IMG/VR virus record: IMGVR_UViG_3300046004_000118
Location: 1 to 23,170 of that record
From: a virus
Reading direction: 5' to 3' (one strand)
DNA length: 23,170 bases
Shown here: positions 3-19,600 of the stretch, piece after piece
Layout: every line of letters begins with the position of its first letter
How positions within the stretch are numbered: position 1 is the stretch's first letter
Translations under genes and position numbers: made by a program
The notes under the pieces: model-generated
Database searches by the model: none
Told to the model about the DNA's origin: nothing
The model's input: the letters and a program-made list of their open reading frames with translations, nothing else

Positions 3-1178
3 GGGCCGTCAGGGTCAGGCAAGTCATTAGCTCAGCTTATGATTCAGTCCCTATGGGGCAATCCTGATATGCTCCATTACGCATCCAAGTTTACACACAA
101 TGCCCTCTATGCCCGCATGGGTCTATGCAATAATCTACCCATGACGATTGACGAAGCCACCACGATGGCGGCTAAAGACATCGGTGATTTCCTGTACGAT
201 GTGTCGCAGGGTAGAGAGAAGGCTCGACTGACTCGCACTGCAGAGGAACGCAACGCCCGTACGTGGCGGTTACCCTGTATAACATCTGCCAATAAGTCTC
301 TGAATGCCTCGCTTATATCGACTGGCTTGGAGACCGACGCTCAGATGATGCGCCTCTTTGAGATCACAGTCACCCCGCATCCGTTATTCGAGAAGTCTAC
401 AGATGCGGGACAACGTATTTATAACTTCGTGTCAGTCCATTATGGGACTATTGGTCGAGCCTTTATCCGCAAGCTGTTGGAGATTGGTGCTGAAGACTTA
501 GCCACCATCATTGACAACCACAAGGCTGAGTTCACCAAGAAGTATAACTGCAAGTTCGAAGGCACTGAACGGTTCTGGGAGCAGAGCGTTATCCTCGCTG
601 ACCTAGCTGGCAAGCTGGCCTGTGAGTGGGGACTGTTCAAGTTTGACTACACCAAATGCACAAACGCCGTCCTGTCACAGATGGGTTCGATCCGTAAGAA
701 TGTGCAGGAGAATATCACTGATTCCTTCGACCTGATCGCTGAGTACCTCAACGCGCACAGCGGGGCGTCGATCACAGCTACCCATACTGGTGGAAGCAAA
801 GTCTATGTGGATACCACCCGGCTACCGCGCGGGGATGTGCGTATTAGATTCGATCTGTACCGCCCGTCGCATTCCGATCCTTATGAGCGCGGCGTTGTTC
901 TACTAGATAAGGCGCACTTCAAACGCTGGCTCTCCAACAACGGAGCCGATATGCGTACCGTAATGAAAGACATCATAGCGGCGAACGCAGATGCTACGCC
1001 CAAGATTGGCAAGGCTTATCTAGCCAAAGACTCGTCGATCAAACTGGGCCAGACCTACGTTATTGGTGTCAGTCTACAGCATCCGCGCCTTGTCGGCATC
1101 CTCACTGACAAGGATGACAACGCCATCAACAATGATCTGGCTGGCTTAACGGTGCTTCAAGGAGGAAGGGCAGATTAG
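3..1178 (+). CDS. DUF927-like P-loop ATPase/helicase, 5' end cut by window
   Basis: Probable replication ATPase (primase-helicase type) of the phage. The frame is open to the window edge: reading in frame from base 3 gives GPSGSGKS, a Walker A loop (GxxxxGKS), so the ATG at 39 is internal and the real start lies upstream. In the 391 visible residues a Walker B (PMTIDEA, with Asp50 and Glu51) follows, then a sensor-like TSANKS around residue 95. The spacing P-loop, NALYARMG, LPMTIDE, SQGREKAR, TW, TSAN matches what I recall of DUF927 proteins of phages and mobile elements. The remainder is helical and ends in a winged-helix-like region of no clear family. It is the only + strand gene here and converges on the structural block. 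The P-loop ATPase call is firm; the DUF927 family name is recalled, not searched. Confidence 0.8.
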   Translation, partial: GPSGSGKSLAQLMIQSLWGNPDMLHYASKFTHNALYARMGLCNNLPMTIDEATTMAAKDIGDFLYDVSQGREKARLTRTAEERNARTWRLPCITSANKSLNASLISTGLETDAQMMRLFEITVTPHPLFEKSTDAGQRIYNFVSVHYGTIGRAFIRKLLEIGAEDLATIIDNHKAEFTKKYNCKFEGTERFWEQSVILADLAGKLACEWGLFKFDYTKCTNAVLSQMGSIRKNVQENITDSFDLIAEYLNAHSGASITATHTGGSKVYVDTTRLPRGDVRIRFDLYRPSHSDPYERGVVLLDKAHFKRWLSNNGADMRTVMKDIIAANADATPKIGKAYLAKDSSIKLGQTYVIGVSLQHPRLVGILTDKDDNAINNDLAGLTVLQGGRAD

Positions 1179-1191
1179 TCTGCCGCTTCCT
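1163..1191. terminator. Hairpin over the convergent stop codons, possible bidirectional terminator
   Basis: Left arm 1163-1174 pairs with right arm 1179-1191: twelve base pairs with one bulged G at 1185 and the loop TTAG at 1175-1178. The loop contains both stop codons, TAG for the + strand gene and TAA for the - strand gene. A stem between converging transcripts would fit a shared terminator, but neither side has a proper U tract (TGTTCT on the + side, CTTGAA on the - side). It could instead act by blocking exonucleases or with help from a factor. Confidence 0.4.
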
Positions 1192-4100
1192 GTTCTCCGG
1201 TCAGTGCTTTGAACTGCTCCGCGAACCTGCGTTCACGCGCAGTCTGCTGCTTCGGCGCACTCTTCAGGTTGGCTATGGCCGATGGCTTGAGGCCGACACG
1301 CTTCTTGGCAGACTGGAGAGCCAGCCATTCAGACTTGGCAGCTTCCACACCAGAACTATCGCCAGCGCGCTGAGCCTCAACGAAGTCACGGCGCACCTCA
1401 GTCGTACGCTCACTAAAATATTTGTCGTACTCGTACATCTCTTGGCGCTTACGTCGGACGTTAGCCATGTTGGTGGACGTAAAGCCAAGTCCCTGCAACA
1501 TACTGTCAAGAAGCGTAAACTCTTCCGGCGATACAACGAGGTCGCCGTTACGGCGCGTGACGCCCTTATCAAACGTCTCACGATACGCCCGCATTGCGCT
1601 CTTGATTCCGTTGGGCATCATGAACTCGACGCCTTTCCAGTAATCTCCCTGCGCCATCATGCCCATGCCGTCTGCAAAGTTGGCGGCAGTACCCATAAGC
1701 GGGCCACCGACACCGAGAAGCGTACGGCCAAGACCTTCACGCGAGGTAAGATCAACGTCAGTGTATGGCAGCGGAGAGAAGACATTACCCAAGCCAAGTT
1801 GGCCGGAGACATCGACACCGAGGCCAGCCGGTACACCTTTGAGAATCGTGTCAGCTAACCAGCCATCTCCGATAATCTGACGGAGGAAGCGTTCCTCATT
1901 CACCGGCTCATCCGGCGGTCCGAAGATAGCCGCCAGAATGTAGGACATGAGCGTAGCCAGTGGCAGTCCAAGCGCACCAGTGAACACAGCCGTCTGACCG
2001 ATGACGTTACGCATGACTGCACGGGCAATGGCGCGTTCTTCCTTCGATGCACCTGCAAACATATTGTAGCCATTGCGGATCAGCAAAGACGCCTGCATGA
2101 CTTGGTATTTGCGGAACTGAGTAATCACCTTGCTGAAGGCGAACGCATTGAAGTAACGCGGCGCATTCAGGCTAGAGTAATCACCTTGCGTCTGGCTCAG
2201 AACTTCAGCCGCATAGTTCAACGCTTGCTGATTCGAACGACCATCGGCTTTGGCTAGACGGTACGCAGCCATACCAGCCGTGACACGGTTGGCGACTTCG
2301 ACCTGACGAGTCAGCGCTGTCAGTTTGTGCATGACATCTTGAAGCGCTTTCTGTGGACCACTGGTCTTGAAAGTCTCCCAGTACCCAAGGTCATAGCCCA
2401 TACCGATGTCGAGCAGTCCGTTGTCACGGAGCGTCGTCAGAACATCCTGCTCTTCCTTGGAATATGCTGAGCCATCCAGCTTGCGCATCTTGGCTACGTC
2501 AAACTCGCCGCGCATAAACTTGTTGAAGTCGCCTTTGTTCTTGAACAGGCTCGTACCAAGTTCTTTATACGTGCGGTTGACGGCATCAGCCGAACGACCA
2601 TAGCCAAACTTAGCCGCCATATAAGGGAGACTAAGCATGTAGGTCTGAGTCGCATTCTGCAGGTAATACCGAGGTAGCGTAAGCAGCGTCCACATGGAGT
2701 TGAACGCCATCAGTTTGTCCTGCAGAGGCGTCGGCGTATAGGTCAGCCCTTGGACATGGCGGCGCAGCACTTCATTCAGCGCCCGCATACGGTCGGCTTT
2801 GGAGCCATCAATACCAGCAGCCGCAGCTTCTTCGTCGGACATACGAGCCTGACGGCTCATCTCTTCAAGCGAGTTCGACACTTCGCTATCATTGGTCATC
2901 GACGCGATGAAATGGGCGTCAGCCGTACCCTTGGTGGCGAATGCCCGCAGCATGTCGTCGTAACCCGCAACGCCAGTACGTGCGAGTTGGTGGCGACGGG
3001 CGCTGTTCTCAGCAAGCGTACCAATATACAGGTCGGTGATAAGCTGATTGATTCGCTCAACTTCTTGAGGCTGGAGATCAGCGGCAAGGTCTTTCTCCAC
3101 CAGCGTCTTGATTCGCTGGAGGTTGAGCCATGCAGGGACATCGACTTTGCCCGGCGACAACTGGCGTTCGAACGCCTCAGTAAACATGCCGGGGAACTGA
3201 GCCTTCATCTCCTCTTGCTTCTGCATCGCAGCGCCAAGTGACTCAGAGAAGATCACGATATAGCTGTCAGGATCAGCACGCAGGGCTTCGAGTTCCGCCT
3301 TTTCTTCGGCGGTACGATCCATCGCCGGGATAGATTCCAGTTCGCGGAACCGCGCCGACTTGCCGACGGTGACGAATTGACCGAAGCGAGACAGCGGAGC
3401 ATACGGACCTTCACGTTCCTTGAAGATGGTATTCATAAGCTGCAATCTACGTGCAACATCTTCCTGACGCTGCTGCTTGATGTCAGCCGGAAGCGATTCG
3501 TACTCCGGTCCCGTGAGTTCGCCCCTAATCTTTTCTACAATAGCTTGACGCATACGCTTCGAGGTCTTGAAGCCATGCTCGAATATCTGATCCGCCACAC
3601 GCTGAGCATTTTCAGGCAGCGCTTCGTACTGCTCTTTGGCAGTCGGGTCTATTACAACTTGTTTACCAATCCATGTAGGCTGGTATCCCCACGCTTGGTC
3701 AATAGTGCTGCTGGCTAGAAACTTATTCAGAGCCTCGCGTGCGTCACCAAGATCACCAGTCTGGAGCATGATCTGATCGACTTCCTGACGCAGCTTATTC
3801 GTCAGGGTCATACGGCTAATCATAAAGTCGAAGTAGGTGCGCACCGCTGGCAGCATGGGACTGATCCAGTCCACAAGGTCACGACCAAAGGCCATGCCAT
3901 ATGCTTTCTTCAGAGCGCCATCACGAATGTTTCTGGCGATAGAGAGCGCAGCCGACTGCATCGGAGCCGGTACCGCACCGGCTACGAACTGCCTGATCGA
4001 CTCGTCTGTGCTGCGACGTTCCGCTGTTGTGGCAGTATCCTCCATCGGAGCAATGCCGCCACCGCCGGGAGGAGTCGTATCCTCCTTGATACCGAGGATT

Positions 4101-7100
4101 TCAGAGAAGTCTGGACCGCCAAGACCGTTGAGGAAGTCCGTGACATTCTGGGTAGGCAGACCTTCTTTGCGACCAGCATCGAACAACTTGTTCATCAAAC
4201 GGCCAAGCGTCGAGAAGAACCGTTCAGTGATCGTCAGCGGCTTACGCTGCGTCGTAGCCCATTTAGATACCTGATCGGCAAACCATTCGCTAAAGCTATC
4301 CCAGTAACCCGGATCAGCCTTAAACATCTCTCCAGCCGATGCACGACCACGCGCACCGAGAGAACGTACAGACTGCTTGGCTCTCTGTGGTGTACGGAGT
4401 AGTCGCATCCATTCAGCCATAGTGGGCATGGCATATTTAGGATCGGCTTTCCGTAGGAACTTTTCGAAGTCACTCTTGATAGCAGCCTGAACTTCAGGCG
4501 AAGCATTGGCGAAGGCGTTAAACTCTACACCATGACCGATCTCGTGAGCGATAACTTCGAGCGCCAAAAGATACCGACGCCCACCTGCTTGATTAACTAA
4601 GTCTTGGTTAAACAGGATAACATCGGTGCCGTCACCCAAACGCGTATAAAGGCCACGCGTCGTAGTTGACAACAAATATTTGCGCAGTGAGCCTTTGAGT
4701 ACAGTTAACTGCGTGTCGGTGATACCGAACTGTTTACCACTTCTGGCATTGACAAGTCGCTGCAAATCACCCTTGGCGATGGAGCCAAAGAGAATCTTGC
4801 GATTGCCAAAGCCAAGTGCTTTTGTCAGTGCAGACACGTAGTTGGCGAAACGTGCATCGACATCCGCGATGACCGTGAGGTTGCCAATCTTAGTGCCAGC
4901 CGGAGTCGGCGTGATTACTTCTTGCGGCTGCGGCCCGCCTTCGACAACGAGATTGCCACCGCCTGCTTCACCGCCGCCTTCTTGGACTTGGGCCGCGACG
5001 TTCCGATTGACCCCTTCGCTTGGTACTTGTCCACCAACTCCTTGATATTGGCCGACACCACCTTGTTCGATTTGCCCGACTTGAGCGGCATTGGGAACCT
5101 CCACTGGTTGAATAGGCGCAGCCGCAGGAGCGACAGGCGCGGGAGCAGCAACCGGCTCTTCGACCGGCACAGCAACGGTAGCGTTCTTGCCACGCTTCTT
5201 GGCAAGCGCAGCCTGAGCTTTCTTCAAACTCTCCATACGCTTAGCGGCAATGGCTTCACCGCGTGCGTTGCCTTCAGCAGCCGCAGCTTTACGCGCAGCG
5301 TTGATGCGGAGCATCTCATTGCGCAGCGCCTCACGGCTCAGAATCTGCTGAGCGCCAAGTTGGCGTACGATCTGCGCACCACGACGCAGCCGAGTGACGC
5401 CGCCTTCCAAGGGCATTTCCATCTGCGGTTCAGCAAGAGGAAGCTGAAGCTGTGTCGGCGTAGCGACTGGTATCTCAGTAGGCGCAGGGGCAACGCCAGC
5501 GCCGCCCTGCAGAGGCAGCGGAATCTGTTCGCCGGGAGGAGTCTGAAGCACACCTTCTGGGAAACTAAACAGAGGCAGACCTTCAACACCAACCTGCGGG
5601 GCCGCTGCAGATGCGGGGGGTGCGGAGACAGCGGCCCCGCGCAGAAGATTTTGCTGACCGAACGGCAACGTCGGCTGTTCTGCAAGACGTTGAGCCATGG
5701 CTTCAGACCGACCAGCGGTCGTCAGCCTGCCAGCGGCGTCGATAGATGCGATGGCTTCACGCGCCCGAGCGATCTGGCTCGTCAGCATGGAGACGCGAAC
5801 TGGGTCGAGCGATCCAGCGCCAGCGGCAGCAGCCTCAAGCTGAGCAGTAGACTCAGCGATCAGACCTTCAAGCCGACGACGTTCATCAATGGCGGCGAAG
5901 TCAGTCTCGCGTGCAGCAGTGAGCGTCTCGCCTGTAGGCTGCATCGCCATCTGAGGGGCTGCACCAAGTTCAGCGCCGGGGAACAACTCGCCCTGTGCGC
6001 CCGGTTGCGGCCCAACAGTCGGAGCTTCTGGCTTCTCACCACCAGCGCCTTCAAGCAGATTAGTGGGTTTCAACGGAGCAGCAACGCCACCCACACCACC
6101 GAATGCACCACCAAGCACAGCGCCAGCGCCAGCGGCGATGAGCGCAGACTCGCCATACTTTTCAATGACATAAGGCGCAAGCGCCTTCCAGTCTGAAGCA
6201 TTAAGCTGGCGACGGAACTCAGGATCAAAGACAGCCTGCTGAGCAAGTTGGGTTGCACCTTCAGCAAACGCTTCAGACGCAGCGCCTTCGGCAGTACCAG
6301 CGGCTATCGCGCCAATGCGCGAACTGGCTGCACGTTCACCGGCTTTGACAACTGCATCTTTGAAGAACGGTGAGAAGCCACGGGCAATGACGCCATCGGC
6401 TAAGGTCTGAAGAAGCGTCGTACCACCAGCCGCAGCAGCAATCTGCATACGTGTGCTGGGGTCATCTAGATTATAGGCAGGCGAACCGTCTGGGTTCTTA
6501 GCGTTCTTCGCTGACTCATAGAAGTTTTGGAACTCAGACGGATATGTTGACGCAGCGAGGCCAGTTAGTGCGCCGACTGTACGAGCGCGCCCAATATTAG
6601 CAGCAACGCCAGCAGCCCGAGTGGCGGCAGCAACGCCCCCAACAGCGCCAAGACCACCAGAGACAAGTGAAAAACCAGCAGAAGGAATACCTTGAGCAAC
6701 GGCGTCCCATATGTTTGACAGCGTCGAGTTCGACTGCTGGATGAGGGCGGACCGTGCCTGCTCAGCTTTAGTCTGACCAAAGGTTGATTCGGCAAACCTA
6801 GCGATAGGTTCACCAACAGACGGTGCACCGGTAGCAGTGAGTATATCACCGACGCCACCGATTGTCTGCTCTGCTAATCCACGCGCGCCGAGGGCGACGT
6901 TAGCCCCGAACCCACGGGGGGTCTTCAGCTTAGAGACATATGCGCCATAGGCGGCGGGACTCATCGGAACCCAGTCTGTCGCCACGCTTGCGGGCGCAGG
7001 CTGCATGGGTTGGTTAATAAGTTTGGAGCCTTCGGATACGTCGAGCGCATTGGTCGCATCAACGAGACGGCCACCGATCCAGAATTTCTGAGTCGAAGGG

Positions 7101-7378
7101 CTATATGGAATGTAGGAAGCAGCGCCACCCATGCCGCCAAGACCTTTAGGCGCAGCCGATCCAGCTACGTCCACACCGGACGGGACGTTCTTAAGCCCGG
7201 CACCTTCACGTAGCTGTTCACCAAAAATGGCAACATCGGCCTGAGTGGGGGCAAGGCTAGGCATTCCCATCTGCGCGGCTGGATCACCAGCGGCACGACC
7301 GTATGCACTACGCGGTCCAATATCCATAGCATCCAGCACTGGACTGGCGAACGCTAACCCAATTCTGTCCATTGCCAT
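1175..7378 (-). CDS. Giant internal virion (ejection) protein with HExxH metallopeptidase domain
   Basis: 2067-aa protein, last gene of the structural block and probably packaged and ejected with the DNA. Residues 1-440 are Gly/Ala-rich with hydrophobic stretches (one near 405-435). About 440-830 is a Pro/Ala/Gln-rich linker with Lys/Arg-rich helices. About 830-1070 looks like a zinc metallopeptidase: HEIGH at 945-949 (zinc ligands His945 and His949, catalytic Glu946) and EWFAD at 1031-1035, 82 residues on, as the likely third ligand (gluzincin-like). The rest is long and helical, with a hydrophobic segment near 1790-1818. The C-terminal half resembles large polyvalent or T7 gp16-like ejected proteins only in general character. 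The start ATG at 7378 has AAGGA eight bases upstream, overlapping the previous stop. A second ATG lies two codons in. The stop overlaps that of the convergent gene by 4 nt. Confidence 0.8.
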   Translation of the reverse strand: MAMDRIGLAFASPVLDAMDIGPRSAYGRAAGDPAAQMGMPSLAPTQADVAIFGEQLREGAGLKNVPSGVDVAGSAAPKGLGGMGGAASYIPYSPSTQKFWIGGRLVDATNALDVSEGSKLINQPMQPAPASVATDWVPMSPAAYGAYVSKLKTPRGFGANVALGARGLAEQTIGGVGDILTATGAPSVGEPIARFAESTFGQTKAEQARSALIQQSNSTLSNIWDAVAQGIPSAGFSLVSGGLGAVGGVAAATRAAGVAANIGRARTVGALTGLAASTYPSEFQNFYESAKNAKNPDGSPAYNLDDPSTRMQIAAAAGGTTLLQTLADGVIARGFSPFFKDAVVKAGERAASSRIGAIAAGTAEGAASEAFAEGATQLAQQAVFDPEFRRQLNASDWKALAPYVIEKYGESALIAAGAGAVLGGAFGGVGGVAAPLKPTNLLEGAGGEKPEAPTVGPQPGAQGELFPGAELGAAPQMAMQPTGETLTAARETDFAAIDERRRLEGLIAESTAQLEAAAAGAGSLDPVRVSMLTSQIARAREAIASIDAAGRLTTAGRSEAMAQRLAEQPTLPFGQQNLLRGAAVSAPPASAAAPQVGVEGLPLFSFPEGVLQTPPGEQIPLPLQGGAGVAPAPTEIPVATPTQLQLPLAEPQMEMPLEGGVTRLRRGAQIVRQLGAQQILSREALRNEMLRINAARKAAAAEGNARGEAIAAKRMESLKKAQAALAKKRGKNATVAVPVEEPVAAPAPVAPAAAPIQPVEVPNAAQVGQIEQGGVGQYQGVGGQVPSEGVNRNVAAQVQEGGGEAGGGNLVVEGGPQPQEVITPTPAGTKIGNLTVIADVDARFANYVSALTKALGFGNRKILFGSIAKGDLQRLVNARSGKQFGITDTQLTVLKGSLRKYLLSTTTRGLYTRLGDGTDVILFNQDLVNQAGGRRYLLALEVIAHEIGHGVEFNAFANASPEVQAAIKSDFEKFLRKADPKYAMPTMAEWMRLLRTPQRAKQSVRSLGARGRASAGEMFKADPGYWDSFSEWFADQVSKWATTQRKPLTITERFFSTLGRLMNKLFDAGRKEGLPTQNVTDFLNGLGGPDFSEILGIKEDTTPPGGGGIAPMEDTATTAERRSTDESIRQFVAGAVPAPMQSAALSIARNIRDGALKKAYGMAFGRDLVDWISPMLPAVRTYFDFMISRMTLTNKLRQEVDQIMLQTGDLGDAREALNKFLASSTIDQAWGYQPTWIGKQVVIDPTAKEQYEALPENAQRVADQIFEHGFKTSKRMRQAIVEKIRGELTGPEYESLPADIKQQRQEDVARRLQLMNTIFKEREGPYAPLSRFGQFVTVGKSARFRELESIPAMDRTAEEKAELEALRADPDSYIVIFSESLGAAMQKQEEMKAQFPGMFTEAFERQLSPGKVDVPAWLNLQRIKTLVEKDLAADLQPQEVERINQLITDLYIGTLAENSARRHQLARTGVAGYDDMLRAFATKGTADAHFIASMTNDSEVSNSLEEMSRQARMSDEEAAAAGIDGSKADRMRALNEVLRRHVQGLTYTPTPLQDKLMAFNSMWTLLTLPRYYLQNATQTYMLSLPYMAAKFGYGRSADAVNRTYKELGTSLFKNKGDFNKFMRGEFDVAKMRKLDGSAYSKEEQDVLTTLRDNGLLDIGMGYDLGYWETFKTSGPQKALQDVMHKLTALTRQVEVANRVTAGMAAYRLAKADGRSNQQALNYAAEVLSQTQGDYSSLNAPRYFNAFAFSKVITQFRKYQVMQASLLIRNGYNMFAGASKEERAIARAVMRNVIGQTAVFTGALGLPLATLMSYILAAIFGPPDEPVNEERFLRQIIGDGWLADTILKGVPAGLGVDVSGQLGLGNVFSPLPYTDVDLTSREGLGRTLLGVGGPLMGTAANFADGMGMMAQGDYWKGVEFMMPNGIKSAMRAYRETFDKGVTRRNGDLVVSPEEFTLLDSMLQGLGFTSTNMANVRRKRQEMYEYDKYFSERTTEVRRDFVEAQRAGDSSGVEAAKSEWLALQSAKKRVGLKPSAIANLKSAPKQQTARERRFAEQFKALTGEQEAAD

Positions 7379-9518: not shown

Positions 9519-10847
9519 TTATTGTCCGTAGCTAAGACCGAATTTAGCACCGCCGCCACTGCCGTACATGCTGCCGCCGTACATGCTGCCGATAGCTTTT
9601 GACTGCTGTTCTTTCCAAAGTTGCGTACGTTTATCAGCAGCTTGATACAGCGGAAGCGTAGCACGAGCAGCCGTCTCAGGAGCAGACGTCGGAAGCGCCG
9701 CTGCCGCAGTAGACATGCGACCAGCAGCCGCAGTCTCTTCACCGGTCACCGCAGCCGAACCAGCCTGAGCGCCCTTAATTGCAGCTTCACGAGCCATGTA
9801 ACCACGACGCGCAGCCGAACCAGTTCCGCCACCGTAACGGCGTTGCTGTTCTTTAAGGCCACGCTGCACAGCAGTCTGCGTCTCAGCGTATGCTTGTTCA
9901 CGATTAGCTTGAGCCGTCTGCCAAAGAGCATTGGCTTGCTCGACTTTCTGCGTGAACAGTTCTTTGTTCGTGGCAGCAAGCTGCGCTGTTTCTTCAACTG
10001 CGCGACGTTCTTCTTCTGTCAGACCTTCCGGCGGTTTGTTATACATCGTCAATGCAAGGTCAACCATACCGCCTTGCTTGTCGCCAGAAGTGAGCTTACC
10101 CATCGTAGACTGGATAGTGCTTGACAACAGCGGAGCAGCAGCCGAAGCAAGGCTCGGTAGGAGCGTACCAGACAGACCACCAAGAGTGCTGCCAAAACCA
10201 CCGGCAGCGCCAGCAGCGCCAACGCCAGCAGCGCCAAGCGCTGCGCCTGCACCGGGAGCAGCGGCTCCAAACGTCGGGACTGCGAGTCCTCCAGCGCCAC
10301 CAACAACTCCAAGCGGAGCGCCGCCAAGAGCGCCGATAGATGAGGCACCCGCAGCAGTCGGAGCCAAGCCCAGAGCGCTACCGATATTCATCGCGCCACC
10401 GATGCCGCCACCGAGAGCGCCAGTGACAGCGCCCGTCAGAGCGCCGCGTCCAGTAAGAGCGCCAACGCCAGCGCCGAGACCAGCGCCGAGAAGGCTACCC
10501 GTCAGGCCAGCGCCAAGGCCAGTGGCCGCAACAGCAGGAGCCGCAATAGTGCCTGCACCAAGAGCGCCGAGACCGAGGGCCGAAGCCGCGCTACCAAGAC
10601 CAACGGCTCCAAGAGCCGCACCAGCGATAGGCGCAAGGAACGGAGCGGCCACGGCTGCGACGAGGGGGACAGCAATCGTAGCGACAGTCTTCAGAATCTT
10701 GCCGATGCCACTGCCAGAGGATTTTTCTTCCGTACCGCCACGAGCAATGTAGGCCGCTGACTGTTGGATATATCTATTAGCTTCAGCCTGCGCTTGTGCC
10801 TGTGCCTTCAAAGCGTCGAACGCTGCACTCCAGAAATCCGCCATCAT
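9519..10847 (-). CDS. Gly/Ala-rich membrane-active virion protein (putative ejection channel)
   Basis: 442 aa. After a short helical, Gln/Ala-rich N-terminus (1-45), residues about 50-245 are almost entirely Gly, Ala, Leu and small residues. They begin with a hydrophobic stretch (TVATIAVPLVAAVAAPFLAP) and contain many GxxxG-type glycine-zipper spacings. A charged helical segment (280-345) and a Gly/Ser/Tyr tail with a repeated GSMYG follow. Position and composition resemble small internal virion proteins that insert into the host envelope during ejection, but I do not recognise a family. Two ATGs start the frame (10847 and 10844). AGGGGG ends two bases before the first, so the second has the better spacing. 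The next gene begins 11 nt after the stop. Confidence 0.65.
   Translation of the reverse strand: MMADFWSAAFDALKAQAQAQAEANRYIQQSAAYIARGGTEEKSSGSGIGKILKTVATIAVPLVAAVAAPFLAPIAGAALGAVGLGSAASALGLGALGAGTIAAPAVAATGLGAGLTGSLLGAGLGAGVGALTGRGALTGAVTGALGGGIGGAMNIGSALGLAPTAAGASSIGALGGAPLGVVGGAGGLAVPTFGAAAPGAGAALGAAGVGAAGAAGGFGSTLGGLSGTLLPSLASAAAPLLSSTIQSTMGKLTSGDKQGGMVDLALTMYNKPPEGLTEEERRAVEETAQLAATNKELFTQKVEQANALWQTAQANREQAYAETQTAVQRGLKEQQRRYGGGTGSAARRGYMAREAAIKGAQAGSAAVTGEETAAAGRMSTAAAALPTSAPETAARATLPLYQAADKRTQLWKEQQSKAIGSMYGGSMYGSGGGAKFGLSYGQ
9561..9590. repeat. 15-bp tandem direct repeat
   Basis: GCCGTACATGCTGCC occurs twice in a row (9561-9575 and 9576-9590), inside the C-terminus of the 442-aa protein, where it encodes a duplicated Gly-Ser-Met-Tyr-Gly unit. 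It is probably a recent in-frame duplication. Confidence 0.75.
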
Positions 10848-10901
10848 AACCCCCTAAATCTGCTGCCTAAACCTAGCATCTAGCTACACGTTGGTCTAGG
10901 A
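10848..10901 (-). other. Longest gene-free gap, with three CTAG sites
   Basis: This 54-nt gap is the longest in the - strand block. CTAG, usually rare in bacterial DNA, occurs at 10873, 10880 and 10896. CCTAG (10872-10876) can pair with CTAGG (10896-10900) to form a weak 5-bp stem with a 19-nt loop. No sigma70-like -35/-10 pair and no U tract were seen. The Shine-Dalgarno AGGGGG of the next gene lies at the low-coordinate end. Confidence 0.4.
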
Positions 10902-11789
10902 CTATTCCTTCTCATTATACTGCTGGAGCATCTTGTCGAAGAACTCCGTACCCTTGGCGCGAACGATATGCGCTGGGATGACATACTCACCCTCATGAGC
11001 CTTGATCGGAATGGCTCCATCAGCCCGGTTGCTCTTGGTCGGAAGCGGACCACCCATCGCCATCGACGGCATAGCACCCGAGACCTGCGGACCAGATGCA
11101 CCACCCATCTGGGTAGCACCAGCGGTCATAGCAGGATTCTCAGCAACTGGCTGCTGAGCGCCACCCATCGAAGCGCCGCCAGCTTGGAGCGACTGTCCGA
11201 GGATAATAATTGTGAAGAGCAGCCCCGGATCGAACTGCTGGCTGATCTCCTGTTCAGTGAGAAGACCTTCCTTAATAGCCATCGCTCTAAGCTGCGGATA
11301 CATCTCAGGATTCTGCATCGCAACCGTGGCAATCTGCACCAACGTATTCAGTTCCTGCATAGTCAGTTCGCCAGACTGGATAGCCTGCTGAACAGCCATC
11401 TGAATCTCTTGAACCTGACGCGGATTACGCTGAGCGAATCGTTGCGCTTCCACCATCAACTGGGAAGCAGAGATGCGCGGAGCCGCACCCGGCTGGGCCA
11501 AACCCGGCTGACTGGTAGCAGTCATCTGAGGCGGCACGCCGACACCCGGCGGAAGAATAGGTTGACCGGCTGGGCCGACCTGACCACCCATCTGGTATGC
11601 AGGAGTGGGCATAGCCGTATTGGCTACACCAGCGATACCACGAGACGGTGCCTGTTCAGGACCAGTAATCTCGCTCATGTCAATAAGGCTAGCAATGGCC
11701 GGAGGTAAATCCATAGATGCCGTAGACGCCTGAGCGCCAGCATTATCAGTCATTTGCATGGGGTCCATTAGAGTCGGGTCGCCAGCCAT
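10902..11789 (-). CDS. Virion-associated protein with HEGEYVIPA C-terminal motif
   Basis: 295 aa, Met/Pro/Gln/Gly-rich. Three parts are visible: a disordered N-terminus (1-105), a helical middle (about 108-205, with EAQRFAQRNPRQVQEIQ and repeated 'LR..A..EGLL' helices), and a low-complexity Gly/Met stretch. The tail (247-295) carries TKSNRADGAIPIKAHEGEYV, continuing IPAHIV. The pattern 'D-x-I-P-hydrophobic-L/A-x-x-G-E-Y/F-V-I-P-A' also closes many phage tail and tape-measure-like proteins. It lies directly upstream of the ejection proteins and may connect or scaffold them; no function is established. GAGGAAG stands about seven bases before the ATG, and the previous stop is 4 nt upstream. Confidence 0.65.
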   Translation of the reverse strand: MAGDPTLMDPMQMTDNAGAQASTASMDLPPAIASLIDMSEITGPEQAPSRGIAGVANTAMPTPAYQMGGQVGPAGQPILPPGVGVPPQMTATSQPGLAQPGAAPRISASQLMVEAQRFAQRNPRQVQEIQMAVQQAIQSGELTMQELNTLVQIATVAMQNPEMYPQLRAMAIKEGLLTEQEISQQFDPGLLFTIIILGQSLQAGGASMGGAQQPVAENPAMTAGATQMGGASGPQVSGAMPSMAMGGPLPTKSNRADGAIPIKAHEGEYVIPAHIVRAKGTEFFDKMLQQYNEKE

Positions 11790-11793
11790 CGTA

Positions 11794-12189
11794 TTACTTC
11801 CTCAATACGGTTATGATATTCGCCACAGCGAGGCGAAGGTTCTCTAGTTCTTGTAGCAACAAAACAGCGTCTTGGTATCTAGCTGCTACGCTAATGACTG
11901 CGGGTATAGCCGCTGAATTGGAATCATATTTTAGCACTTGGCTACCATTATCCGCAGTAAAATACGTTGTGGAATACGCGGGCAGCGGAGTCACCACTGT
12001 AATATTAGGATCAGCCACATAGTTTAAGCTAAGATCGCTGCGAATGATAGCCCTGCTGGCATTGTCCCGTTCGCCCCGTAGCCCACACAGCAACTCGACA
12101 TTTTGCACCAGAGGACGCAGGGTACGATTCTGCCATTCGGAAACCTGTCCAGTCACAGGGACTGGCGGTATGGAAGTAAACGATGCCAT
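11794..12189 (-). CDS. Third copy of tandem paralogue family (tail-associated, unknown role)
   Basis: 131 aa. The N-terminus FTSIPPVPVTGQVSEW and the following RTLRPLVQNVELLCGLRGE line up with the two genes upstream (shared pattern F-x-x-I-P-x-V-P ... EW-x-x-R-x-L ... Q-N-V/L-x-L-L-x-G). The C-terminus is a short helical zipper (LLLQELENLRLAVANIITVL) like those of its relatives, while the middle has diverged. The C-terminal helix could trimerise. GGGAGGGG lies just before the ATG, which overlaps the previous stop as TGATG. Location between nozzle and ejection proteins suggests a tail-tip or core part; the function is unknown. Confidence 0.65.
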   Translation of the reverse strand: MASFTSIPPVPVTGQVSEWQNRTLRPLVQNVELLCGLRGERDNASRAIIRSDLSLNYVADPNITVVTPLPAYSTTYFTADNGSQVLKYDSNSAAIPAVISVAARYQDAVLLLQELENLRLAVANIITVLRK

Positions 12190-12593
12190 CAGCCCCTCCC
12201 TAACTGGACAGTGATCTGTTCAATAGCAGTACGCAAATTAGCTATATCCTGTTTAATTTTCTCAAGGTCGCCCGCTGATCCGCACTTAGCCAGTTCAGTC
12301 GGTATGCTTTGCCAGCCGCCGGTATCCCAACGCACGACTGTCTTCGTACTACCATCCACAGCGGTCACGTTGACCGATGCGAGGTCAGATACCTGCACAG
12401 GTTCGATTGCCGTGATCGTTGGTAGGATTGTGCCGAGTTGGCCGAAACTTTTCTGCAGGATTACTTGGTTGGTAGTGCTGCCGTCTAGTCCGAGTAGACT
12501 ATCCAGATTTTGCTTTACCGCCAGCAGAGTGCGGTATTCCCATTCGGGGACATTCTCTGTCGGTATAGCTGTGGTAGCTGTAAACGTAGCCAT
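12189..12593 (-). CDS. Second copy of tandem paralogue family (tail-associated, unknown role)
   Basis: 134 aa. It shares the N-terminal motif IPTENVPEWEYRTLLAVKQN with its upstream neighbour (IPEWEYR ... VQN) and ends in a helix (DLEKIKQDIANLRTAIEQIT) with heptad-like spacing. The central part, rich in Thr/Val, is not conserved between copies. It starts in a TGATG overlap with the previous gene and has only a weak Shine-Dalgarno (GGTGA), consistent with coupled translation. I do not recognise the family by name. Confidence 0.65.
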   Translation of the reverse strand: MATFTATTAIPTENVPEWEYRTLLAVKQNLDSLLGLDGSTTNQVILQKSFGQLGTILPTITAIEPVQVSDLASVNVTAVDGSTKTVVRWDTGGWQSIPTELAKCGSAGDLEKIKQDIANLRTAIEQITVQLGRG

Positions 12594-13000
12594 CAGTTCA
12601 CCAACTGCTGAATTATCTCATTAACGACCGCACGCAATACAGCAATTTCACCAATCATTTTTTGCATATCACTAGCATATACGCAGCCGCGAACTGTTGA
12701 TGCGTAAGTCTGCGCGTTAGCATCATATAAAACAGCGGCATCATAAGTAGATGGGCTTGTTAGGATATTATTACCCGTCATGTCTTTTTGCGGATATTGC
12801 TCTAACGTAACAGGGATAGTCGCAGGCAACACATTCGCAAAATCATACGTAGAATAAAGCAGCGCTTTATTCGAAGTGGTGCCATCAGTAAGATTGCCCG
12901 TCAGAAGATCGACGTTCTGTACAAGCGCGCCAACAAGACGGTATTCCCATTCAGGAATATTAGACGTCGGGACCGCTGGGATGGCTGCAAATCTAGGCAT
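12593..13000 (-). CDS. First copy of tandem paralogue family (tail-associated, unknown role)
   Basis: 135 aa from the ATG at 13000, which overlaps the nozzle gene's stop as TGATG; GAGGGATG lies a few bases upstream. A GTG one codon earlier is possible but less likely. The N-terminus FAAIPAVPTSNIPEWEYR, then LVQNVDLLTGNLTDGTTSNKA, matches the next two genes. The C-terminus is helical (MIGEIAVLRAVVNEIIQQL). It is the least diverged from the second copy in the N-terminal motif (PEWEYR in both). The three genes appear to come from two rounds of duplication. Confidence 0.65.
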   Translation of the reverse strand: MPRFAAIPAVPTSNIPEWEYRLVGALVQNVDLLTGNLTDGTTSNKALLYSTYDFANVLPATIPVTLEQYPQKDMTGNNILTSPSTYDAAVLYDANAQTYASTVRGCVYASDMQKMIGEIAVLRAVVNEIIQQLVN

Positions 13001-15207
13001 CACACATCCCTCAGTGAGAGTGGTGTGTCGCCAAGTTGTATTGCTCGAACCCGGATATAACTCTCTACTTCCACTTCGAACGTGTCGCTCTTGTAGCCAC
13101 TTGGCAACCTGAACGCATCGCTATCAGTGCAGATTCTAGCAATCTTAAGCTCTTTATTAACATAGAGCTTGAACGTAATCGGATCGTCGGAGTTCCAGAT
13201 TTGCTCTGCAAGTTCCCAGTCTACAGCCGCAGTCGCCCATTCATATGGAGTTTCATTCGTGGCGTAGTCAGCAATAACTCTAGCAGCACCGACATTGGTA
13301 TAACCCTCAACCTTAAATACCTTTGACTTCCATATGATCTGGGAAGTCGGCTGATTTGGGTCATCCCAGTGATATACGTCGCCGTTTGTACCTGACGAAA
13401 CGTACAAGATATTGGTGAGTGAATCATACCAAGTTGCTGTGAACTTGAAGTCGGAGTTGACGAACGACGTAGCGCCGCCTTGCGCACCGGCTTCAAATAC
13501 AATCGACCCAGCAGAATGTGATGCGAAGTAAGTCTCCTTATAGGAGACGCCAACTAGTGTAGATGGATCAAGCGCGGCATTCCACGTATCGGAACTATGC
13601 ACCTGCCGAGTTATAATCGGCGCACCGCTAGTCGAACTCCAGAGGGCTAGACCATCGTGAGTTGCCCATACAATACCGGAACTTGTCTCGACAATACTTC
13701 TAGCGCTGACGCACGGGTACCGCGATGGCAGCTTAGCAATAGAGAGAACAGATGGATCATTACCTGATACGACATACGGATAGGATTCGGTAAGCACCAG
13801 AATCTCTTGGCCGATGACGGCGATACCGACAATCGAACTTTCGAAAGAAATCTTGTATTGTTCCGGCCACGCATGGAACTCATTAGGCTCAGAGAAGTAC
13901 AGGCTATTACCAACGAATCCGGCGAGGAACGTATTCTGTACGACCTTCAACCCCTTAATATTATCTGGCGGCGGGGCATAGCCGGATGTAGTTAGAATCT
14001 CAGTGAGACTCCTAAAGTTGAAGTCATCCGTAAATGTATAACTACCACCGTCTCCCCAATATCTTGCAGTACTAGATAGCGATTCAGCTATATCATAGTA
14101 CATAGTCCCAGTAACAGTCTTACTTGCAACATCGGAAGCAGTCTGAGAATATGTAAATGAATTAGTATCAATGACTTCTAATACTGATCCTGTGCCATTG
14201 AACGTAGCGTCACTACAACCACCGATCTTAAATCTATCCTCTGCGATAAGATTATGCGGATATTGCAGAGTGATAGTAACGACGTTATTAGAACGTGCCA
14301 CTCGGGTAACAGTGTTTGGGAACCATAGGGTCTGCAACCGGTAATATTCAGCAGACGTTGTCCCTGACAGTGTGCGATAAAGCCGGATACCACGGACAAA
14401 GTTATTGCCAGACGGCGGGGCAGTAGGTAGCCCAGTCACCGTGACGATCTGACCTTCTTTAATGAACAGCGGCGTCGATGGCTCTGAACCAATGGATTCT
14501 TCGTTCCACGGAGTGTACCACGTATATAGATACGTTCTCGCTTGGATAGACCCGCCGAGGTCAATCGTACCGCCAGTCGTCGTGCCAGCAGGACCAACCG
14601 CATAATAACTAAAAGATGTTGAGCTAATAACCGTGGCAGTCGTAACGACGTTGAACGTAGTCGGCGTCAGGCCAGACACAGAGATAGATGCGCCATCCTT
14701 CAGATTGTGCGCGCCGGTCGTCGTCACAGTGACGTTGTTGGCGTTGTCTCGACTGAACGAGCCTGTCGTAATCGCCGTGAATGGAGTAGCTACAGTCGTC
14801 AGAACCGTAGAAGGCAGCGGCAATCCTAGATCATAATAGCCAGTAGTTGATGGGTACGGGGCAGACCCATTCGTAGCTAGCGCGTAAGTACTAACCTTGG
14901 CGTTGCCATCACCGGTATAATAGAACCGCTGCTCACCCAGTTCGTCCGTTGCGGGCGTGACAATAGAAACGTCCGTTAGCCACGATAGCCAAACGAGAGA
15001 GCCACTGGTCGGATTACGTAGAGCATAGAGCGTACGGATGGTACCCGAACGATTAGTAGACGCGACGATATGCGGCACAGGAAAGGGTATAAGATCACCG
15101 GAATAGAGCTTGCAGTTCTCCGCAACCTGCGCCGCTGTGGGCGGCAGCAGTTCAGGAGAAATCTTTGGTGCAGTCCCTAAGAACCCGGTGATCTTAATTG
15201 CTGGCAT
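13000..15207 (-). CDS. Tail nozzle protein (T7 gp12-like tail tubular protein B analogue)
   Basis: 735 aa, close to T7 gp12 (about 790 aa). The start MPAIKITGFLGTAPKISPEL, then AAQVAENCKLYSGDLIPF, is typical of nozzle proteins of T7-like podophages, and the rest is beta-rich with propeller-like segments (e.g. IVGIAVIGQEILVLTESYPY). It would form the distal tail channel through which DNA and internal proteins leave. Two similar inserted modules of about 70 residues (150-217 and 302-372) share 'NNVxxxxxxPHNL...F..G....FNGT..V..V.S.SFSY', which may be surface-exposed Ig-like or adhesive folds. The ATG directly follows the stop of the tiny gene upstream (TAAATG); no strong Shine-Dalgarno is near, so translation is probably coupled. 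Confidence 0.75.
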   Translation of the reverse strand: MPAIKITGFLGTAPKISPELLPPTAAQVAENCKLYSGDLIPFPVPHIVASTNRSGTIRTLYALRNPTSGSLVWLSWLTDVSIVTPATDELGEQRFYYTGDGNAKVSTYALATNGSAPYPSTTGYYDLGLPLPSTVLTTVATPFTAITTGSFSRDNANNVTVTTTGAHNLKDGASISVSGLTPTTFNVVTTATVISSTSFSYYAVGPAGTTTGGTIDLGGSIQARTYLYTWYTPWNEESIGSEPSTPLFIKEGQIVTVTGLPTAPPSGNNFVRGIRLYRTLSGTTSAEYYRLQTLWFPNTVTRVARSNNVVTITLQYPHNLIAEDRFKIGGCSDATFNGTGSVLEVIDTNSFTYSQTASDVASKTVTGTMYYDIAESLSSTARYWGDGGSYTFTDDFNFRSLTEILTTSGYAPPPDNIKGLKVVQNTFLAGFVGNSLYFSEPNEFHAWPEQYKISFESSIVGIAVIGQEILVLTESYPYVVSGNDPSVLSIAKLPSRYPCVSARSIVETSSGIVWATHDGLALWSSTSGAPIITRQVHSSDTWNAALDPSTLVGVSYKETYFASHSAGSIVFEAGAQGGATSFVNSDFKFTATWYDSLTNILYVSSGTNGDVYHWDDPNQPTSQIIWKSKVFKVEGYTNVGAARVIADYATNETPYEWATAAVDWELAEQIWNSDDPITFKLYVNKELKIARICTDSDAFRLPSGYKSDTFEVEVESYIRVRAIQLGDTPLSLRDV

Positions 15208-15348
15208 TTACTTGCAGCCGCCCTTCTTGACCATGCCACCTTTTTTATAGGCGGGCATCTTCTTCTCAGCGGGCATCATCGCTTTGTCTTTACCCATCAT
15301 TTTGCCTTTTGGCATCATCGCTTTGGATTTGCTAGCAGCGTTCTTCAT
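15208..15348 (-). CDS. Tiny Lys/Met-rich protein (46 aa)
   Basis: 46-aa frame between the outer spanin and the nozzle gene: ATG at 15348 overlaps the spanin stop (ATGA) and the TAA directly touches the next ATG. It is very basic, rich in Lys and Met, with repeated AMMP/KMMG units, and ends MPAYKKGGMVKKGGCK. The same kind of ending (EYRKGGMVRK...KKGCK) closes the 55-aa protein at 19950-20117, so the two are probably related. No function is known; the charge suggests binding to DNA or acidic partners. Support comes from exact packing between genes and the conserved tail. Confidence 0.6.
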   Translation of the reverse strand: MKNAASKSKAMMPKGKMMGKDKAMMPAEKKMPAYKKGGMVKKGGCK

Positions 15349-18014: not shown

Positions 18015-18935
18015 CTACGCAAATTTTGGGCTGCGGGCTGTCATAGAACCACGCATGTTGGACAGATTGGCACGAGCGCGCCGCTCAGTGAGATGGAATA
18101 GATATTGCCGTGAATGGTACGACGCCAACTCTACATTCGACCATGCCGCATTAGGCATCAGAAGAATTTGCTGTAACGCACCATGGACAATAACATCTTC
18201 TAGTTCATCCATGACATGCTCTTCCATGCCTTCAGCATCGCGCTTCGGCTTTAGCGCATAGAACATACGCATGGTATAGGTCTTGTCGTTATCCGGCATG
18301 GGGAGAACGAGATACCGATTTGGAAGAACTTGGCAGATTGCACGAGGTTCTGACCCTGCTTCCATCGTAGGGTCTAAGATATTGAAATTGCCGGAGAGAT
18401 CGGCACGAGCATACAGAAGACTAATAGCCGACGACGTACGCGTACCAGTGCTGGTCTCCAGCAACAACGCGCTACCGCTTTCTTGAGTCAGCAGGTCTGC
18501 CGCATCTGTGGAATCTATGGCTTCCAACGAGCTATAAGTATTCGCTTCATTGAACTCGCTGTTATTAAACTGCTTAGAGTTCAGCGGCGCTTTAGTCGTC
18601 TCGCTCCAAGCGACATCAGCAGAATAACCACTGAACAAGTCAGCCCATTGAGGATATTGGTACAGCGCTTCTTCAAGCGTCAGCTTTTTCAGCGGCTGTC
18701 CGTTCATCATGGCGTCGAAGACCACATGAACATCTGAGTTCGTCGGCTTATTGTACGCGTATTCGTATGCGCCGGGAGACAGATTAAACGTCGGCTCCAC
18801 ATGCCGCCAAAGTAACGACCGCTCACACGCGCGGATAGCCGCCTTCCGAATCTCGCGGAGCATAACGGGCTGCGGGCAACCGGGGGCGCTAGCGCCTACT
18901 TCTTGAACCAGCGTGGAAAAGGCACGATCAGTCAT
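18015..18935 (-). CDS. Head-to-tail connector protein (adaptor/tail tubular A-type)
   Basis: 306 aa. The helical N-terminus (VMLREIRKAAIRACERSLLW, RHVEPTFNLSPGAYEYAY) is followed by a beta-rich part and a C-terminal helix pair (HVMDELEDVIVHGALQQILL, then WSNVELASYHSRQYLFHLTE). This helix-beta-helix layout and the position directly after another adaptor-like gene fit the ring proteins that join portal and nozzle in podophages (T7 gp11 analogues), though I recognise no named family. GAGGTGA lies shortly before the ATG, which overlaps the previous stop as TGATG. Confidence 0.6.
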   Translation of the reverse strand: MTDRAFSTLVQEVGASAPGCPQPVMLREIRKAAIRACERSLLWRHVEPTFNLSPGAYEYAYNKPTNSDVHVVFDAMMNGQPLKKLTLEEALYQYPQWADLFSGYSADVAWSETTKAPLNSKQFNNSEFNEANTYSSLEAIDSTDAADLLTQESGSALLLETSTGTRTSSAISLLYARADLSGNFNILDPTMEAGSEPRAICQVLPNRYLVLPMPDNDKTYTMRMFYALKPKRDAEGMEEHVMDELEDVIVHGALQQILLMPNAAWSNVELASYHSRQYLFHLTERRARANLSNMRGSMTARSPKFA

Positions 18936-19600
18936 CAGATCACCTCACCGATAATCTGGTCAGTGCGAGAAGGCTTCATAGCCGCAGACTTAGTATCTGT
19001 AAGAGAACGACTCTGCAGCGACGACGTTAGTTGGCTCGTGAACAACTGAAGGAAGAACTCAGCCCGCTTCGAATTGATGCTCTCGTCGTCGATTGACTCA
19101 GCCAAGAATACCACACCATCAACTATGACAGGAAGGAACGCATCACTCGGCTGATCTATGACATCACCAATGGCGTAGTCGGCTGGCACTTTTACGTACT
19201 CGCCCAGCAGTACGGTGCCTGAAGTTGGCGGCGGATATAGGAAGAACCTTTCCGGGTTCTTCACATGCCGCATAAAATTTACAGGCGAACCAGCAGTCTC
19301 ATTCATCCAGTTCGGCGCGTAGCGGGACAACGTCTCACGATCTACTTCGGTAATGGCGTTACTGCCTTTAACCTGAAATATATCAATGAGTCGCATACCA
19401 TCGCTCGGTAACGCCTGCACTGCCGTATTGGCCGTCGTAGGTATATCGCTGATCGACCCGAAGAGATCAGGACGCAGCACTACCATGCGCTTAATTGTCT
19501 GATTAAAAAACCCAAGCAAATCCGTATCGCTGTAACGATAAGGTGCAGCAGTATCTTGTAGGATATTGCGCGCTTCGGTGATTATATCAGATGGTGTCAC
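18935..19600 (-). CDS. Head-tail adaptor protein (DUF6682-like)
   Basis: 221 aa. The N-terminus PSDIITEARNILQDTAAPYR, with YSDTDLLGFFNQTIKRMVVLRPD, is characteristic of phage adaptor proteins that sit under the portal (I recall similar sequences under DUF6682). The middle is beta-rich, with YPPPTSGTVLLGEYVKVPAD; the C-terminus is helical (AEFFLQLFTSQLTSSLQSRS). It would form a 12-fold ring closing the capsid and receiving the tail. It begins with GTG at 19600, which shares its GTGA with the previous gene's TGA, so translation is probably coupled. The family name is from memory; the connector role rests on sequence pattern and order. Confidence 0.65.
   Translation of the reverse strand: MTPSDIITEARNILQDTAAPYRYSDTDLLGFFNQTIKRMVVLRPDLFGSISDIPTTANTAVQALPSDGMRLIDIFQVKGSNAITEVDRETLSRYAPNWMNETAGSPVNFMRHVKNPERFFLYPPPTSGTVLLGEYVKVPADYAIGDVIDQPSDAFLPVIVDGVVFLAESIDDESINSKRAEFFLQLFTSQLTSSLQSRSLTDTKSAAMKPSRTDQIIGEVI

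Follow-up and report, generated by a model that had tools for sequence, protein, structure and literature searches.

The tail needle of phage P22 is a trimer. In the P22 record, gp10 is followed by the needle gp26 and then by genes 14, 7, 20 and 16. In phage SU10 the nozzle is gp17 and the needle gp18 is made of three chains, according to extracts of the structural report (PMC9509320). Small proteins encoded directly after the nozzle gene have been described in Burkholderia phages of the Bcep22 type. In extracts of one report (PMC9144972), BcepIL02 gp64 is identified as virion-associated; mass spectrometry of virions did not detect the homologues Bcep22 gp68 and JC1 gp62, and the JC1 authors consider neither of them a virion protein. 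Small size and a low copy number would be another reason for their absence from the data. Dual tubeA genes, which are adjacent tail-protein paralogues kept together in Bcep22-like and PhiGT1-like podoviruses, have been traced to fusion of distant lineages (extracts of PMC10386132). Our search of the open-licence literature turned up no description of a phage needle or plug that is a heterotrimer, an absence that is no proof.

The window analysed here is the whole of record IMGVR_UViG_3300046004_000118 (23,170 bases), labelled G000 among the whole records searched. It carries three small genes, lettered A, B and C by their position in the array. The features discussed are the following:

18935-19600, minus strand: adaptor-type gene (PF24175 SU10_adaptor, phrog_399; matches 8jov_2), upstream of the nozzle gene
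18015-18935, minus strand: adaptor-type gene (phrog_437), upstream of the nozzle gene
13000-15207, minus strand: predicted tail nozzle protein, 735 aa (phrog_511; PDB 8jov_A, E = 1.5e-55; fold match), the gene directly before A
12593-13000, minus strand: copy A, 135 aa from its ATG, without G-x-RG; TGATG junction with the nozzle gene
12189-12593, minus strand: copy B, 134 aa, without G-x-RG; TGATG junction with A
11794-12189, minus strand: copy C, 131 aa, G-x-RG kept; TGATG junction with B
10902-11789, minus strand: 295-aa protein, the next gene after C, kept as neighbour of this slot in relatives

The AlphaFold model of the protein encoded at 13000-15207 (pLDDT 85.1, pTM 0.77) matches 8jov_A, from the GP4 portal-tail complex, with a Z-score of 37.1. 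The next-best matches are tail chains of other phages, including Pa223 (Z 25.4), SU10 (Z 23-24) and P22 (8eap_D, Z 23.4), and Foldseek agrees for 8jov, SU10 and P22. As modelled, this product is a podophage tail nozzle, with a fold common to the nozzles of GP4, SU10 and P22. Since the nozzle directly precedes the needle in both P22 and SU10, A, B and C occupy the needle slot by position, and the tail-region placing made earlier from the letters alone is borne out.

The neighbouring genes also resemble those of known podophages. The adjacent phrog_437 and phrog_399 genes apparently correspond to the dual tubeA arrangement described for Bcep22-like phages (extracts of PMC10386132). Downstream of C, the order is 295 aa, 442 aa, 705 aa with a transglycosylase match, and 2067 aa. 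These genes are presumed to encode ejection proteins, and the 295-aa product, from its position only, is presumed to be an ejection or internal virion protein. The 2067-aa protein (1175-7378, minus strand) contains the stretch HEIGH, of the HExxH type found in zinc metallopeptidases, and gave no Pfam match at the 1e-3 threshold. Many relatives, such as L039, L042 and L012, carry behind the 260-330-aa protein a gene of about 145-162 aa whose position suggests an acyltransferase-like product; this gene is missing from the window (10847-10902) and from L041 and L118. The gene after the slot encodes 510-519 aa in L043 (7459-8991), where the small gene is triplicated, and in L121 (6647-8206), where it is single. 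The N-terminal parts of these two proteins are near-identical over at least 120 residues, and other relatives do not have this part.

With B as query, an HMM search of the record itself recovered A at E = 1.1e-17 and C at E = 1.6e-10, and no fourth copy. BLOSUM62 local scores exceed those of shuffled sequences by 30 SD for A-B, 15 SD for A-C and 21 SD for B-C, and for every pair the real score was reached by none of 1000 shuffles. In a MAFFT alignment, B is 31% and A 29% identical to C. Judged by these comparisons, the three genes are full-length paralogues, and the similarity is not limited to low-complexity positions. The sequence-only reading had proposed a tandem triplication of a small gene with fixed ends and a diverged middle. 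The three abutting minus-strand ORFs are indeed such a triplication, and in the alignments the middle is the most diverged part. The N-terminal pattern given in that reading is correct in outline and inexact in detail: PEWEYR is present in A and B, with SEWQNR at that place in C, and the AVPT of A is AIPT in B. At all three junctions (nozzle-A, A-B and B-C), stop and start overlap as TGATG with one base in common, which favours linked translation of the nozzle, A, B and C. A pattern scan of the minus strand from 10800 to 15300, of a kind that proves nothing, found no terminator-like site.

The AlphaFold model of C (mean pLDDT 70, pTM 0.39) has helices at residues 18-35 and 105-130 and strands at 73-78 and 84-89. 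The second helix agrees with the C-terminal helix predicted earlier. These are the only helices of this low-confidence monomer model, and a long coiled coil is absent from it. A fold look-up with the model gave nothing usable (the best match, Z 2.8, is a ribosome entry), and this failure does not argue for a new fold. PDB sequence searches with the small proteins returned ubiquitin, flagellin and coiled coils, and none is a credible relative. A test for homology to P22 gp26 was likewise negative, with an hhalign probability of 2.4% and an alignment lying only within the coiled coil.

Relatives were gathered by scanning viral contigs for both the small proteins and the nozzle. Contigs without a match to a short peptide pattern are out of reach of such a scan, and one scan kept 80 of 102 relatives; the counts are therefore counts of what was fetched. 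Loci were dropped if the nozzle ORF was 700 aa or shorter or cut by a contig end, if no family member lay within 1300 bases, or if the member was at least 200 aa long (L137, fused) or cut. Repeats, judged by the last 120 nozzle residues, were also removed (L040 repeats L039). There remain 107 loci with a complete nozzle and a complete slot, a count that excludes loci from later scans, including the B-type scan. A long nozzle (786-903 aa) is found in 99 of them, each with a single copy of 105-123 aa (99/99). The other eight have a short nozzle (735-742 aa); three copies are present in six and one copy in two (L119 and L121), and the family members at all eight are 128 aa or longer. The family is thus widespread in uncultured podoviruses, nearly always as a single copy in the slot after the nozzle gene.

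Among 22 whole records searched, seven have three copies (G000-G006), 14 have one and one has two (G010). The last is cut at the contig end and consists of the end of a B-type gene and a C-type gene. An uncut two-copy state was seen neither in these 22 records nor in the 107 loci, and within the triplicated group we observed no uncut member with fewer than three copies. The contig L004/L038 is identical to the window in the triplet region and is therefore taken as the same virus. A scan for B-type proteins gave strong matches (E = 3e-17 or better) in seven of 31 loci, all on three-copy contigs; the remaining 24 loci matched weakly (E = 9e-5 to 2e-4), through single-copy members. A tblastn search of 50,697 phage records with B and with a single-copy member found no relatives, and in genome_contigs 105 stretches matched the pattern and none was a relative.

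The nozzles of the triplicated viruses, and those of L119 and L121, do not have the inserted stretch of their long-nozzle relatives, whose position varies but is most often behind residue 184. A link between nozzle-domain loss and triplication was set aside as evidence of contact, L119 and L121 being short-nozzle yet single-copy; moreover, the short nozzles may all belong to one clade, so that there is at most one event. In L137 (3717-5399, plus strand), the first approximately 96 residues of the small protein are fused in frame to the next gene, giving a 560-aa ORF that loses the C-terminal helix. The fusion may be genuine or may stem from faulty assembly.

A maximum-likelihood tree was built with 31 proteins (seven each of A, B and C and 10 single-copy). 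The A proteins are separated from all others by one branch, as are the B proteins and the C proteins (support 82/79, 97/97 and 98/96, respectively), and the 10 single-copy proteins are likewise grouped (88/85). The branch that sets C with the single-copy proteins and A with B has weak support (79/77). As the proteins group by array position, the triplication predates the split of the seven viruses, with the order kept since. Read from this tree, there is a single old triplication with a fixed order and three separately conserved lineages. In the pair L118-L041, dN is 0.064, 0.120 and 0.085 and dS is 0.635, 0.559 and 0.575 for A, B and C, giving dN/dS of about 0.10, 0.21 and 0.15; the values for the nozzle are 0.041, 0.783 and about 0.05. 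Each of the three copies is under purifying selection in this pair, in which synonymous change is not saturated (dS is mostly saturated in more distant pairs). Old separate lineages under purifying selection are as expected for non-interchangeable subunits. The motif G-x-RG after the first helix is present in C in all seven viruses and in A and B in none (0/7 each). This restriction to C, together with the separate purifying evolution, argues that the copies are not interchangeable. C has also gained a longer middle, which the single-copy long-nozzle relatives do not have, and A and B keep the N-terminal Pro-rich segment, the Trp and the C-terminal helix in all triplicated viruses.

In cultured phages, the gene after the nozzle was read in a sample of 18 phages from 156 nozzle-bearing phage records, plus P22. 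The shortest encoded protein has 59 aa (SopranoGao), and the longest, in Vibrio and Aeromonas phages, exceed 1250 aa. An N-terminal module, a helix-type stretch ending in L-x-G-x-[RK]-[GRNA] within the first 100 residues, is present in 15 of the 18 slot proteins; among 2349 other ORFs with 100 aa or more in the fetched loci, it is present in 14. The pattern was written after inspection of the sequences. Of the three misses, POI1126 and Pavtok carry a looser module and CF418P1 has none. Examples are ENVELLTGQRG in phiARM81mr and NIEMLTGQKG in Vibrio phage douglas 12A4, to be compared with QNVELLCGLRG in C. The slot protein of Aeromonas phage phiARM81mr matches PF09327 'Bacteriophage tail tip fiber protein' (1.8e-15). 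Of the seven slot proteins scanned, it is the only one with a PF09327 stretch that passes by itself; CF418P1 is marginal (8.8e-6), and the Pfam scan gave no PF09327 match in A, B or C. Annotated reverse transcriptase genes lie just upstream of the nozzle in phiARM81mr (L246, 2175-3461) and in Vibrio phage 1F273_PE002 (L248, 1666-3317), and one of the two adjoins an Avd protein of a diversity-generating retroelement.

The window-type proteins were also compared with the Burkholderia-type slot family. An hhalign comparison of 83 window-type proteins with eight Burkholderia-type proteins gave a score of 29.2 (E = 2e-4, probability 47%), and the alignment covers the motif (helix-G-x-R) and the C-terminal helix, in register. 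None of 200 column-shuffled controls reached this score (highest 17.6). At E-values up to 1, A, B and C gave no match to phrog_17319, and the single-copy relative L031 gave only 0.12. The window family is thus a distant relative of phrog_17319 and not a member of that PHROG.

These observations suggest a role for the triplet at the tail tip. We judge it slightly short of an even chance that A, B and C are small axial plug subunits docked to the nozzle, probably as a hetero-oligomer; docking, axial location and trimeric state are what we infer here. The N-terminal Pro-rich segment and helix (approximately residues 1-45) would be the part that docks in or on the hexameric nozzle. The middle, which is variable and modelled in C as a short beta element, would be exposed or partner-specific, and the C-terminal helix of the short forms may serve oligomerization. 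The body beyond the docking segment would be exchangeable: a short beta element, a coiled coil or a long fibre. In most relatives one gene would supply all subunits, presumably as a homotrimer, and in this clade an ancestral triplication would have given three overlapping genes, with the canonical motif kept by C and lost in A and B. The needles of P22 and SU10 are trimeric at this slot, which makes a homotrimer probable for the single-copy protein and a hetero-oligomer probable for the triplicated form. The conservation of both ends in all copies, the overlapping frames and the separate purifying evolution fit a hetero-oligomer. A hetero-oligomeric plug at the tail tip would be the likeliest outcome, perhaps an A-B-C heterotrimer. 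The sequence-only reading had suggested a hetero-oligomeric plug or needle, and that suggestion is plausible and borne out in part. In a fuller scenario, this heterotrimer, derived from a homotrimer, closes the tip as an asymmetric threefold plug on a sixfold nozzle, with only C using the canonical motif, and a single N-terminal nozzle-docking module carries exchangeable bodies (59 aa to more than 1250 aa) across many podophages. We regard this scenario as possible but on the doubtful side.

That A and B have lost G-x-RG is compatible both with a single specialized docking subunit in a mixed plug and with an ancestral role retained by C only. It is rather unlikely, in our view, that C alone keeps the ancestral homotrimeric plug while A and B, freed from it, form their own homo-oligomers, stacked farther out axially or elsewhere on the nozzle. 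The confinement of the motif to C in all seven viruses and the position of C beside the single-copy proteins in the tree would be explained in this way. That position is weakly supported, however, A and B keep the whole design in all viruses, and C, having gained a longer middle, did not simply stay ancestral. Very improbable is an interpretation of A, B and C as alternative receptor-contact tips, any of which fills the slot, with variable middles that broaden the host range. The middle is indeed the most diverged part, and the same slot holds long tip fibres in other phages. Interchangeable tips should nevertheless turn over, recombine or vanish, whereas A, B and C were already distinct before the seven viruses diverged and have kept their order ever since, each copy is under purifying selection, and no uncut member with one or two copies was observed in the triplicated group.

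The proteins might also act outside the tail tip, as assembly helpers or small internal (ejected) proteins encoded after the nozzle by chance. The following genes are presumed to encode ejection proteins, and the failure to find JC1 gp62 and Bcep22 gp68 in virions (extracts of PMC9144972) is in line with such a role. This is quite improbable given that BcepIL02 gp64 was found in virions (same extracts), that the slot holds needles in P22 and SU10, and that in a relative with the same N-terminal module it holds a long fibre with a tail-tip domain.

If A, B and C do form one complex in a nozzle-docked plug, the triplet would represent a natural shift of a virion part from homo- to hetero-oligomer. 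The single-copy and triplicated states would then both be sampled in living relatives, and a route to an asymmetric threefold plug on a sixfold tube would be visible. The slot family, defined by gene position and the N-terminal module, provides a handle for naming tail-tip proteins in many podophage entries now listed as 'hypothetical' or 'virion structural protein'.

The closest counterparts are the Lessievirus-type slot proteins (BcepIL02 gp64/phrog_17319, Itty13 gp08, Atu_ph08 and PBC5). Like the window genes, they lie directly after the nozzle gene, and they share with the window family an N-terminal helix, L-x-G-x-R followed by an A-rich basic stretch, and a C-terminal helix. They are present in one copy of 81-117 aa, in contrast to the three copies of the window. 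The needles P22 gp26 and SU10 gp18 occupy the same slot, after a nozzle gene of the same fold. Each needle is made from one gene, whereas the window has three; P22 gp26 has 233 aa, compared with 131-135 aa and one short C-terminal helix here, and this helix is far shorter than the needle coiled coil. The podophage tip fibres (phiARM81mr p63 and those of Vibrio phages douglas 12A4 and 1F273_PE002) share the slot and the N-terminal module with C, but are longer than 1250 aa, with a tail-tip-fibre domain in phiARM81mr, whereas the window proteins have 131-135 aa. The dual tubeA genes resemble the triplet in being adjacent tail-protein paralogues kept together (extracts of PMC10386132); unlike those pairs, the triplet looks like a duplication in place. 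The known kind is therefore a tail-tip component in the needle slot; what is new is its triplicated form, with a putative heterotrimer as the part of most interest.
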